DNA of 60,146 nt. It comes from Calothrix anomala FACHB-343. Its GTDB lineage: Bacteria; Cyanobacteriota; Cyanobacteriia; Cyanobacteriales; Nostocaceae. A program made the translations under genes and the position numbers. The notes under the pieces were generated by a model. It was not told the DNA's origin, searched no databases, and was given only the letters and a program-made list of their open reading frames with translations. Positions 47,504 to 51,583 of this stretch are shown here, in pieces. The DNA lies in contig NZ_JACJQG010000060.1 in assembly GCF_014696435.1 (NCBI RefSeq), positions 1 to 60,146 of the forward strand, given 5' to 3'. The first letter of the stretch is position 1; each line of letters begins with the position of its first letter.

Positions 47504-48463
47504 TTAATGACATTGTTGATACAAAGATAATAAAGTACATTCCCACACAAGACGCGGCTGGGCGTAGCAAAGTAAAGCTTTACGCGCTTTGTCTAGTTGT
47601 TTGATTATCTCTTTTTTATACGATTGTTGCCAGTATATTTGCTGAAGATAATCAACTAACCATAGCTGTGCTTCTGTATCTAAATCCTTATCAATTGTTT
47701 TTGCTAACTCCAGCGCTTGACGGTAAGATGCAGGTGCTTTTTTCACAGCTTCTAGTAACTCAGGGGGGATAGATTGGAGTTGCTGATAAGATGCGATCGC
47801 ACTTCCCGCACTACCTGCGGCTATACTCAACAATGGGGGATTTTGCAAAACCTCTGAATGACCGGATTGAGTTAGTACCTCAGCTAAAACAGACTCATCC
47901 AAGCGAGAAAAAGGGATGCGTTGACAGCGTGACACCAATGTTGGTAACACAGAGTCAGGTGTAGGTGCAATTAAAATCAAAGTCGCCTGTCCTGGTTCCT
48001 CCAAAGTTTTTAGTAACGCATTCGCTGCTGCTTCCGCCATAGTTTCTGCTTGTTCCAGCACGACAATATTTCTTGGTGCTTCCAAAGGCGGACGACCAAG
48101 AAATTCTGTAATTTGGCGAATTTGCTCTAACCTAATGACAGGCGGTGCTTTCCGCTTCACACCCTTCTCACCTGCTTCTTTAGCTGTGAGTAACTGTCCT
48201 TGATATTGGTAAGTCGGTTCTACCCACAATACATCTGGGTGGTTACCTTGCAGCAAGCGATTATGTAAAGACGAAATTAATTTTGTCTCTACAAAACTCG
48301 CAAATAAAAATTCAATAAAGCACCGCGCTGCTAAACTCCGTCCCACCCCATCCGGCCCCACAAATAGATAAGCCGGTGCGACGCGATTTTGTTTCACCGC
48401 CTGAGTTAATAATTCTATGGCTTGTTGCTGTCCTAAAAGTGGTTGAAATGGGGCATGGGGCAT
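47504..48463 (-). CDS. holB: DNA polymerase III delta' subunit
   Basis: Clamp-loader AAA+ subunit. It has FVGPDGVGRSLAARCF (a Walker-A-like loop lacking the usual GKT), LEQAETMAEAAANALLKTLEEP with the SRC-like VSRCQRIPF, and a helical C-terminus. The N-terminus PLLGQQQAIELL is normal, but everything before it is translated from a TGCCCCA heptamer array. ATG 48463 is the nearest in-frame start; ATGs at 48484 and 48505 are also in frame, and none has a good ribosome site. The native start seems to have been replaced by the repeat. It is downstream of tmk, as in many bacteria. Confidence 0.88.
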   Translation of the reverse strand: MPHAPFQPLLGQQQAIELLTQAVKQNRVAPAYLFVGPDGVGRSLAARCFIEFLFASFVETKLISSLHNRLLQGNHPDVLWVEPTYQYQGQLLTAKEAGEKGVKRKAPPVIRLEQIRQITEFLGRPPLEAPRNIVVLEQAETMAEAAANALLKTLEEPGQATLILIAPTPDSVLPTLVSRCQRIPFSRLDESVLAEVLTQSGHSEVLQNPPLLSIAAGSAGSAIASYQQLQSIPPELLEAVKKAPASYRQALELAKTIDKDLDTEAQLWLVDYLQQIYWQQSYKKEIIKQLDKARKALLCYAQPRLVWECTLLSLYQQCH

Positions 48464-48515
48464 GGGGCATGGGGCATGGGGCATTGGGCATTGGGCATTG
48501 GGCATGGGGCATTGG
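48448..48515. repeat. TGCCCCA/TGCCCAA heptamer array at the holB start
   Basis: Nine or more heptamers (ATGGGGC/ATTGGGC on the plus strand) run into the 5' end of holB. Successive units place ATG in each of the three frames. Confidence 0.88.
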
Positions 48516-48555: not shown

Positions 48556-49140
48556 CTATCCTAGCAATAGGCGATCGCGTAAAATGCCTTGAATGGTTTG
48601 GTGTACAATTTCCTGACTTAAACTGCCATCGATGCGGATAATTCTTTCGGGAAAAGCTGCGGCTAAATCTGCGTATCCTTGCTGTACGCGCTGGTGAAAA
48701 GCGATGGTTTCTTGTTCAATTCGGTCTAAAGCTGCTTCTGTGCCACGTTTGCGAGCTAGTCCGACTTCTACATCCACATCTAACCAGATAGTCAAATCGC
48801 TTTGTAAACCCCCAGTAGCAATATAATTTAGCTGGTCAATTAAACTCATATTTAATCGCCGACCGTAACCTTGATAGGCAATAGTCGATTCAACATAGCG
48901 ATCGCATAAAATATACTTACCCTGGGCTAAATAGGGTTTAAGTTCTTGTTCCACATGTTGCGCTCTATCAGCAGCATATAACAATAATTCTGTTACCTCT
49001 GCGATCGGTTTATTATCAGCCTTTTCTAACAACAAGCGGCGCAAATCTAAACCTAATTCTGTTCCTCCTGGTTCTCGCGTCAAGAATACGGAAATACCCA
49101 TATTTTCCAACCAAGCTTGACAAAGCTGCATTTGGCTTGT
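48556..49140 (-). CDS. tmk: Thymidylate kinase, exon 2
   Basis: Phosphorylates dTMP to dTDP, essential for DNA synthesis. This exon codes residues 17-210 of the spliced protein, beginning TSQMQLCQAWL directly after the P-loop glycine-lysine. It has the LID and DRY-type motifs (TREPGGT, CDRYVESTIAYQGYGR, LARKRG). Exon 1 is 51536-51583, and the intervening 2395 nt are a group II intron. Joined, the 633-nt gene encodes a full-length Tmk. An open frame running from intron into exon 2 (start 49245) is not the real N-terminus. It is followed by holB. Confidence 0.92.
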   Translation of the reverse strand, partial: TSQMQLCQAWLENMGISVFLTREPGGTELGLDLRRLLLEKADNKPIAEVTELLLYAADRAQHVEQELKPYLAQGKYILCDRYVESTIAYQGYGRRLNMSLIDQLNYIATGGLQSDLTIWLDVDVEVGLARKRGTEAALDRIEQETIAFHQRVQQGYADLAAAFPERIIRIDGSLSQEIVHQTIQGILRDRLLLG

Positions 49141-51535
49141 ATTAAACTCAGCGAAATTGTCACCAATTCCACTGGTCTTCAAAACCGGACGTGAAACTTT
49201 CGCTTCATCCGGCTCCTCAGTGACTTGGCGTTTTGTCATACGCACCTCAGACTACCATCGTTGGCTGTCTTTGTGTCGTGGCAATGCCTGTGCAGGAGTT
49301 GATGATTGTTGTAGTCATCCTTTCCACCTTGCGATTTCGGGATGATATGGTCAATTTCCAGCACATCGCTTTCGCGGAAGTATAATTCGCAGTGGGCACA
49401 TTTCCCTTTTTGCTTTTTCAGGAGTTTTGTTATCCTGGTGGGCATTTCTGGGCTGTTTCCCATTCTTGTACTCCAGTAAACTAGATTTCCATCGTATGGA
49501 GATGCTTCGCCTTGAACTTTAACATGACGGATAATTGGAGTAGTGTCATGTCTGAATAGGCGACAATATTCCTCTCCTTTTTTGGTTGCGAAAACCCAGC
49601 TAAAGCTGCCTATGGGTAGCCAGTATTTTTTGAGTACCCATTCCGCACTTTTCTTTGAATGTCGGCGGTTTGCCCAAGCTCTCAGTTTCAGATACATGAG
49701 GTTGTCAATTTCCGAGTAAGTATCCTTGCTTACTACGGTCGCATAGTAATTTGCCCATCCCCTAATAATCGGGTTTAGTTTATTAATCAGTGCCTCTTGA
49801 GGTGCTGATTTATGGCTTTCAATAATACTAGCGATTTGGTCATAATGTACCTTTTGCTTTTCCTTGCTTGGAGTAATGATTGTTTTAAAGCCAAGTTTAG
49901 AGTGTGTTTTGCCTACGGCGAACTGCCGTATGTTGAAACCAAGAAAGTCGAATCCTGGCTCTTCTCCCAGATACTTGTTGAGAGTATGGGTTAGTCTTGT
50001 TTTGCTTGGCTTTAATTCCAAACCCATGTCATGTAACCACTCCGAGATAATTTCTCGACATCTTTGGACTACGGTTATGTCTTCATGAAGAATCACGAAG
50101 TCATCGGCGTAGCGAATTAGGCTGAGGGAGTATCTTTTGTCCCTTTTGCTTTGTTGCCGTCCGTAGGTATTTTTCATATCTAACGTTTCGGCAAATTGTT
50201 TAATTCGCTCTTCCATTCCGTGGAGGGCTATATTTGCCAATAATGGAGAAATTACTCCACCTTGTGGCGTTCCCTCAGTTGTTGGAAACAACTGCTCAGA
50301 ATCTATAACACCTGTCTTTAACCATGCCCGGATTTGTCGGCGTAAGCTAGGGAAGGTGTTTAATTTTCTCAGCAATGCTTTATGGTTAATACGGTCGAAG
50401 CACTTGGCAATGTCAGCATCCAAGACGAACTTGGGTTTTTGCTTAATTGACCCGAAGACTGCTTCAACAGCATCATGACACGAGCGTCCAGGTCTGAACC
50501 CGTATGAGTTAGGTTCAAATCGCGCTTCCCATTCTGGCTCAAGAGCCATCTTGACAAGTGCTTGCAAGGCGCGGTCGTTCATTGTAGGTATTCCCAAAGG
50601 TCGTTTTTCGTCTTTACCAGGTTTTGGAATCCATACTCGTCTGGTAGGTTTGACCTTTGTACCCAGTTGCATTTTATCAGTTAGCTCCAGACGTTGCTTT
50701 GGGGTCAGTGATTTAACACCATCCACACCTGCCGTCTTTTTGCCTTGATTATCCTGGGTAACTCTACGAACCGCTAAAGCTTTGGCGTACCAGGACTTCA
50801 TTAACAGCTTTTGGAGTCTGCGAAATGTTTTTACATCACCACGCTTCGAGGCTTGATAAATTCTCTTTTGGAGCTTATACACCCGACGCTCTAGCTTTCG
50901 CCAGTTAATCTTGTGCCATTCCACCGTAGTCTTTAAACTCGTCTTAGACATTTTAACCCTTTAGTTGAGACTTTATCTTCCAAATCACCGTGAATCTGTC
51001 TGCATATCCTGGGCATTACCCCAGGCTTTCGCTTCTGACTCAATCTTTCCTGCTCGCAGTATCCGGTTAGCACCTACTCAAGACATCGACCTTCCTGAGA
51101 ACATACGAGAGGTTACTTCGTTCCGAATGACCATACTATGTACCTTTAGAGTGACGCTATTCGCCGGGTTTATCGGAAGTGCAAGTTGGTCAAGGAAAAA
51201 ACTGCCAACTCCTTATCCTTTGCCTTTTGGCTTCAGCGTATCAGCCTTATTTCGCTGATTAGGTTTAACGACGATTCAGACACGTCTTCAAGCTGTTGCT
51301 TTACTCATGGGTACTTTGCTCGGCGGTTACTGAGGGATTGGGCTTTCAGTACTTTCGCTTTTCATCCCCGCTTCAGGCGTTGATGGCTAGTCTTGAACCT
51401 GGGGGAAGTGCTTTCACCGCTGCACCTGCGGGATAGGACTCACACCTACATGGTCATTCAGTTGTCAAGGTTCTGAACCTTGCGGCTAATCCTCCAAACC
51501 CTTACGGGTTGTGGTTTCTAGCCAACGAATCGCAC
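49141..51535 (-). mobile_element. Complete group II intron in tmk
   Basis: 2395 nt, read on the minus strand. The 5' end is GTGCG at 51535, the standard group II start, right after exon codon AAG. The 3' end is ..GAGTTTAAT at 49141. Domain V (49181-49215) folds GAGCCGGATGAA against CCGGTTTT with the GAAA/AGTTTC arms. Domain VI (about 49145-49180) forms an 11-bp stem with a GTGA loop and an unpaired A at 49148, eight nt from the 3' end, the expected branch point. The protein gene lies in domain IV. Ends, domain V/VI and IEP all look intact, so it should splice. Confidence 0.9.
49236..50951 (-). CDS. ltrA: Group II intron reverse transcriptase/maturase with HNH domain
   Basis: 571 aa intron-encoded protein. 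RT motifs include the catalytic YADD (281-284), GYRP-like GFRPGRSCHDAV (151-162) and TPQGGVISPLLANI (228-241). A maturase X domain follows (GWANYY, about 390-450), and the last 54 residues form an HNH endonuclease (CAHC at 518-521, then IDHIIPKSQGG and HRHCHD). It promotes splicing and retrohoming. The ORF ends just upstream of domain V, as expected for a gene in domain IV. The frame is uninterrupted. Confidence 0.95.
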   Translation of the reverse strand: MSKTSLKTTVEWHKINWRKLERRVYKLQKRIYQASKRGDVKTFRRLQKLLMKSWYAKALAVRRVTQDNQGKKTAGVDGVKSLTPKQRLELTDKMQLGTKVKPTRRVWIPKPGKDEKRPLGIPTMNDRALQALVKMALEPEWEARFEPNSYGFRPGRSCHDAVEAVFGSIKQKPKFVLDADIAKCFDRINHKALLRKLNTFPSLRRQIRAWLKTGVIDSEQLFPTTEGTPQGGVISPLLANIALHGMEERIKQFAETLDMKNTYGRQQSKRDKRYSLSLIRYADDFVILHEDITVVQRCREIISEWLHDMGLELKPSKTRLTHTLNKYLGEEPGFDFLGFNIRQFAVGKTHSKLGFKTIITPSKEKQKVHYDQIASIIESHKSAPQEALINKLNPIIRGWANYYATVVSKDTYSEIDNLMYLKLRAWANRRHSKKSAEWVLKKYWLPIGSFSWVFATKKGEEYCRLFRHDTTPIIRHVKVQGEASPYDGNLVYWSTRMGNSPEMPTRITKLLKKQKGKCAHCELYFRESDVLEIDHIIPKSQGGKDDYNNHQLLHRHCHDTKTANDGSLRCV

Positions 51536-51583
51536 CTTCCCGCAGCCTTCCACCCCTTCAAATACAATTAATTTGCCACTCAT
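51536..51583 (-). CDS. tmk: Thymidylate kinase, exon 1
   Basis: 48 nt encoding MSGKLIVFEGVEGCGK, the start of Tmk up to the P-loop glycine-lysine. The intron is inserted directly after the lysine codon AAG, and exon 2 resumes with the threonine-serine of the Walker A motif (GKTS). The exon is too short to be found by normal gene calling. Upstream is a short gap to the divergent permease-kinase gene. Confidence 0.9.

Follow-up and report, generated by a model that had tools for sequence, protein, structure and literature searches.

Passages of one account note group II introns in housekeeping genes especially for cyanobacteria and for the chloroplast-like (CL) and mitochondria-like (ML) lineages (PMC4424553). 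Here we describe a group II intron that splits the thymidylate kinase gene, tmk, of Calothrix anomala FACHB-343 on a contig of 60,146 nucleotides (NZ_JACJQG010000060.1, analyzed in full and called the window). With the CL introns of cyanobacterial housekeeping genes, as these passages describe them, it shares the phylum, a reverse transcriptase-maturase, and a conserved chromosomal gene that needs splicing, but it interrupts active-site codons, and lateral transfer has filled this position in several species. The group IIB introns of Thermosynechococcus elongatus (6ME0; PMC2882425, in excerpt) have in common with it the recognition of the target through exon-binding sites 1 and 2 (EBS1 and EBS2); according to the same excerpt few of them lie within genes, whereas the tmk intron interrupts an essential one. 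The Trichodesmium twintron of Tery_4732, spliced in vivo according to passages of PMC4649490, also occupies a conserved cyanobacterial protein gene, but there the introns are nested and the function of the host gene is unknown, while a single intron is found here in a nucleotide kinase. Recent lateral transfer with adaptation to a new site is likewise described for Ll.LtrB and Ef.PcfG (PMC5072309, in part), although Ll.LtrB resides on a conjugative plasmid, in a relaxase gene (PMC6003770, in part), and not in an essential chromosomal gene. In inteins the homing target is similarly locked by protein function, by way of a different chemistry.

The sequence-only reading that preceded this analysis placed bacterial group II introns usually between genes or in dispensable mobile genes, which is incomplete, as the cyanobacterial housekeeping-gene exception was already known (PMC4424553, same passages). 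By title and abstract we found no published tmk intron, a search that did not extend to the group II intron database or to the bulk of subscription papers, and the passages seen of a 2025 review of cyanobacterial splicing contain none (PMC12702839). The locus belongs to a known type of host-gene intron and is, as judged from sequence comparison, well supported as such; what sets it apart is an intein-like homing to active-site codons, together with a clear lateral spread of close copies.

The intron lies on the minus strand of the window between codons 16 and 17 of tmk, within the GK|TS of the Walker A motif (P-loop). Exon 1 (51583-51536, 16 codons) codes for MSGKLIVFEGVEGCGK, the last two residues being the Gly-Lys of Walker A, and ends with GGGAAG (51541-51536), which constitutes the intron-binding site 1 (IBS1). 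The intron itself (51535-49141, 2395 nt) starts with GTGCG and ends with TTTAAT, and exon 2 (49140-48556) begins TSQMQLC, opening with the Thr-Ser of the motif. Exon 2 matched the Pfam family Thymidylate_kin (E of 5e-44, covering profile positions 10-185), and excision of the intron in silico gave a 210-aa Tmk with a complete Walker A. The initial proposal of a group II intron inside the tmk P-loop codons was therefore correct to the base in its exon and intron limits, and the joined translation bore out the predicted GKTS and 210-aa product. Very probably, these Gly-Lys|Thr codons in the P-loop of tmk are the single homing site of a protein-encoding group II retroelement.

Both the RNA and the protein of a group II element could be recognized. 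The GTGCG at 51535 matches the group II GUGYG start, and the Rfam family Intron_gpII (RF00029) was detected with 54.5 bits (cut-off of 40), the match ending exactly at 49141; the plastid group II domain-5 family RF04357 matched as well (57.2 bits). The domain 5 hairpin (49182-49215, minus strand) was placed by Rfam match, fold, and five-copy comparison, and that of domain 6 (49144-49178, minus strand) by fold and paired changes. The latter has a bulged A at 49148, eighth base from the intron 3' end and likely the branch point, and the terminus is AT (AY in group II). The fold of both domains gave a z of -6.8. Among the five tmk introns described below, both sides changed in 7 of the 15 pairs of domain 6 (three distinct rows here) with all cells remaining paired, a pattern of compensatory change, and one cell of domain 5 was unpaired. 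The intron-encoded protein (IEP; 49236-50951, minus strand, 571 aa), with a reading frame located before domain 5, has RVT_N and RVT_1 domains (the latter with a YADD motif, by eye), a GIIM maturase domain, and an HNH endonuclease, and reached 346 bits against TIGR04416 (cut-off of 300). Its closest solved structure was 6ME0 ("Maturase reverse transcriptase," E of 5e-116, residues 7-566), which we take to be the T. elongatus maturase. The intron is probably of class CL, subgroup IIB. This is the only full copy in the genome, together with a partial relative (69%) on another contig, the reading frame of which is broken in two.

To define the distribution of the intron, PF02223 was searched in 59 genomes and then in 218 genomes of the family (that of the window included in both), and weaker matches were read individually. 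Five of the 218, from three genera, carry an intron at the identical tmk base, namely, the genome of the window (G000), Calothrix brevissima NIES-22 (G001), Nostoc sp. T09 (G007), Nostoc sp. ATCC 43529 (G159), and Richelia sp. UBA3308 (G216); in the genus of the window, it is present in 3 of 9 genomes. A junction pattern gave three matches in 388 genomes of the order (G000, G007, and G236), a sample that does not contain the remaining three carriers; the G236 match has three mismatches and no similarity to the tmk intron. PF02223 had no match in G115 or, in the 59-genome search, in G036, while the weak one in G052 was in a frame that looks like adenylate kinase by eye. Three other apparent splits of tmk were not introns: in G235 the profile was matched from 1 to 143 and followed by a frame change, G079 has a short in-frame insertion, and G141 is one base short in an A-run. 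This missing base in G141, a 72%-complete genome, is located at the intron insertion site (L138:147-200) and is probably a sequencing error, or possibly the trace of an imprecise intron loss.

An empty site was found in G005, from the same genus, where tmk is uninterrupted and matches the intron-bearing T09 with 98.3% and 93.7% identity in the two flanks of the site. The sequence is continuous over the splice junction, with a single synonymous difference from T09 at +3, so the intron boundaries are fixed independently of any model. T09 and G005 are sisters, with a distance of 0.005 in a tmk tree built from 22 rows, 5 carrying the intron and 17 lacking it, and a synonymous divergence (dS) of 0.15 in holB, the next gene downstream in the window. 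On this tree, intron presence required 4 changes against an average of 4.6 for shuffled labels, and thus the intron is hardly clustered.

This patchiness bears on what the intron may do for its host. In Lactococcus a group II intron reduces host mRNA after splicing (PMC6003770, in part), which by analogy makes a cost to the Tmk level plausible; together with the essential, single-copy nature of tmk, it would also suit an intron kept as a regulatory switch that couples DNA synthesis to Mg2+, temperature, or maturase level. We regard such a role as unlikely, since a patchy presence, in 3 of the 9 genomes from this genus and in one member of a sister pair only, is more what one would expect of a mobile parasite than of a conserved switch.

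Indications of mobility came from comparing the divergence of the intron with that of its host genes. Between the window and T09, dS was 0.142 for the IEP, 1.23 for tmk, and 1.03 for holB, and between the window and ATCC 43529 it was 0.121, 2.20, and 1.17, respectively. The values of the IEP are therefore ca. 9 and ca. 18 times below those of tmk and 7 and 10 times below those of holB, which argues for lateral movement into one site, a spread that the sequence-only reading had overlooked. The window and NIES-22 (IEP, 0.087; tmk, 0.136; holB, 0.135) are different, and the intron of this pair looks vertically inherited; leaving it aside, the four close copies (those of the window, NIES-22, T09, and ATCC 43529) are far younger than the divergence of their hosts. 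Along the alignment of the window with T09, identity was 0.67-0.88 in windows of the exons and stepped up at the splice sites, to 0.93-0.99 within the intron, with no visible conversion tract, which favors retrohoming over an exchange of long flanks. In the mechanism that we propose, ribonucleoproteins made of intron RNA and maturase would reverse-splice into an intron-less tmk, and from then on only maturase-assisted splicing of the pre-mRNA would give Tmk.

The guide was located with relatives of the intron (best 80 of 130 retrieved). From 83 sequences (window plus L042-L123), the pairing test took the 52 in which the 5' end and domain 5 could both be mapped; in 50 of these, the 3' end was mapped as well. 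EBS1 (TTTTCC, 51194-51199, minus strand, intron nt 337) pairs with exon positions -6 to -1 (6/6 in the window) and EBS2 (AAACCT, 51261-51266, minus strand, intron nt 270) with positions -13 to -8 (4/6). Over the 52 introns, EBS1 averaged 4.62 of 6 pairs (2.49 on average and at most 3.06 in 5000 partner shuffles; next-best column, 3.22) and EBS2 4.33 of 6 (shuffles, 2.24 on average and at most 2.73; next-best column, 3.13), in a test that is somewhat generous because the stretches were picked as the best-scoring columns. CTTCCC, near intron nt 130, was rejected as EBS1, being identical in all five tmk introns although the exon varies, and the stretch at nt 337 was preferred because it pairs with the exon across the 52 introns.

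Among the tmk introns, the EBS1-IBS1 pairing is complete in four of five, i.e., TTTTCC/GGGAAG in the window, TTTTCC/GGAAAG in NIES-22, and TTTGCC/GGTAAA in both T09 and UBA3308, and 5/6 in the fifth. We also compared these guides with 34 distinct intron-less tmk genes, where TTTGCC pairs fully with 30 and at five of six positions with 4, and TTTTCC fully with 4 and at five of six positions with 30. Within the genus, all six tmk genes that lack the intron have GGTAAA, and for this reason the GGG of the window and the GGA of NIES-22 look like a synonymous change, in one lineage, by which pairing to the U guide was regained. The guide EBS1 (UUUUCC, or UUUGCC in two relatives) pairs with the Gly-Lys codons. 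As these codons vary only at the wobble base, where a U or a G of the guide can accommodate the change by G-U pairing, protein constraint would keep the target usable across species. A more ambitious version, which we put forward tentatively and with somewhat less than even confidence, is that the intron follows the strategy of an intein, EBS1 reading the invariant Gly-Lys codons of an essential single-copy enzyme with a U opposite GGA/GGG, a G opposite GGC/GGT, and a U opposite AAA/AAG. Two wobble-tolerant EBS1 alleles would thus cover all the synonymous targets, and the element would spread between species and genera, with the host Gly codon (GGT to GGA/GGG) re-paired with the newer guide in the lineage of the window. 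The locus is also a counterexample to the view that group II introns make no durable homing targets of conserved active-site codons (PMC2814812), a 2009 survey having found no preference for conserved host sites (combined p = 0.49; same source).

Several observations weigh against homing to a single, guide-specified site. Complete pairing was seen at EBS1 in only 24 of the 52 introns and at EBS2 in only 3, some of the poor ones being possibly mismapped; within the tmk introns, ATCC 43529 has one EBS1-IBS1 mismatch (TTTTCC/GGTAAA, 5/6), and EBS2 reaches just 4-5/6. At the DNA level, conservation around the insertion is no more than moderate, being equaled or exceeded in 105 of 606 windows along tmk. 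Given the polyploidy of cyanobacteria, named in part of PMC8919778 as a possible cause of their tolerance to such introns, intron-less tmk alleles may be hidden from the assembly. Finally, the Richelia copy has diverged from that of the window as much as its tmk (identity of 0.66 in the IEP and 0.64 in tmk; dS not computable) and so gives no sign of lateral transfer, and its nearest relative in the IEP tree (best 48 of 78 usable IEPs) is L087, an intron at another site. In this tree, the four close tmk introns formed a clade (SH-aLRT of 99), and these four, Richelia, and L087 grouped together with a support of 99. Strict monophyly of the tmk introns failed, as the non-tmk intron L087 groups with Richelia, and it is possible that this lineage reached tmk either once or twice before the recent spread.

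An ancient resident of tmk, inherited vertically, lost in most species, and kept similar by constraint on ribozyme and maturase, would account for this Richelia copy, for the window/NIES-22 pair, and for the presence of five tmk introns in one supported clade (plus the non-tmk one). It is hard to reconcile with the dS of the IEP, so far under those of tmk and holB in T09 and ATCC 43529, with the near-identical sister of T09 lacking the intron, or with a number of changes on the tmk tree close to that of shuffled labels. For the four close copies, vertical residence is already disfavored by these comparisons, and as a general explanation we consider it distinctly improbable. The reading that remains preferred is the homing retroelement, for which the DNA shows that the element is intact and its site precise, that the guide pairs with the exon, that the close copies have spread laterally, and that tmk is open and constrained.

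In the present sample of 52 mapped sites, it is very improbable that this intron lineage targets the P-loops of all kinds of ATPases, as many inteins do. The tmk site and a plasmid relative inside a type IV secretion ATPase gene (see below) would agree with it; however, GGNAAR is found at the splice site only in the five tmk sites of the 52 mapped, and the intron of the secretion ATPase follows different codons (by eye). The other mapped sites were in TnpB-like, regulator, transporter, SSB-like, or reductase-like genes or were unassigned (by eye, no profile).

The search for another thymidylate kinase covered the whole assembly of the window's genome (9.24 Mb, 144 contigs, recorded as 100% complete). 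The single PF02223 match was exon 2 itself, in a search that was positive in 13 of 14 control genomes, and the T4-type dNMP kinase (PF21448) had no match either. The absence of a second intact tmk, on which the sequence-only reading had made its proposal depend, was thus upheld in this assembly. The joined Tmk is open in all five intron-bearing genomes (210-214 aa), and the ratio of nonsynonymous to synonymous divergence (dN/dS) was 0.07-0.11 for tmk and 0.14-0.28 for the IEP (window against T09, ATCC 43529, and NIES-22). A disabled pseudogene, with another enzyme phosphorylating dTMP, can hardly be defended beyond the interruption of the ATP-binding motif, given the open exons in five genomes, their low dN/dS, and the lack of further PF02223 or PF21448 matches in the genome. 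The claim that every Tmk molecule depends on splicing holds to the extent that purifying selection (dN/dS of ca. 0.1) and the pairing between exon and guide suggest it. With the intron in the only recognized tmk, and copies at the same site spread between species, the cells probably rely on its correct self-excision to produce Tmk. The host would have to maintain splicing, and imprecise loss of the intron would be impossible. The frame of exon 2 stays open across domains 5 and 6 (49141-49245) up to a GTG at 49245, so that unspliced RNA could yield a 229-aa Tmk without P-loop, presumably inactive.

The coexistence of filled and empty sister species provides a natural system to study what allows a group II intron to persist in an essential bacterial gene and what its splicing costs. 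If splicing were limiting, the dTTP supply of these cyanobacteria would be under ribozyme control.

The gene downstream, holB (47504-48505, minus strand), codes for the DNA polymerase III delta' subunit and starts 50 bp past the tmk stop. A holB match lies inside the tmk locus (ca. 1.5 kb per side or less) in at least 19 of 34 loci. However, in two of the carriers, ATCC 43529 and UBA3308, holB and tmk are on different contigs, and in T09 an additional reading frame separates them. The suggestion that holB also depends on splicing therefore loses weight as a general claim, and a shared fate of both genes would be local at most. Between tmk and holB there is a 7-base tandem repeat with 9.3 copies (48448-48512; ATGGGGC, plus strand) that supplies the listed start of holB and approximately its first 20 residues, and a change in copy number could accordingly shift or supply the start.

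Related introns were found at other sites. One of them (L042:4001-6379) splits the annotated conjugative type IV secretion gene mentioned above, on a cyanobacterial plasmid, a location that makes the plasmid a possible vehicle for lateral spread. Three others (L084, L091, and L097) share a common site in ssb (by eye), also a replication gene, in three cyanobacterial genomes. By eye, L108 appears to lie in a thioredoxin-reductase-like gene and L104 in a ribonucleotide-reductase-like one, and two relatives (L120 and L123) are in a host gene of the Tery_4732 type, with flanks that match the protein quoted in the passages seen of PMC4649490. No related intron matched in G003 or G008, whereas G002, a member of the genus without the tmk intron, has several equal-scoring copies of introns 67-71% related elsewhere (L153 and L156). 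ATCC 43529 contains a second intron elsewhere (L155, 78% similar), for which a motif search of the insertion site found nothing. Lastly, two loci on viral contigs carry relatives that are 50-52% identical.

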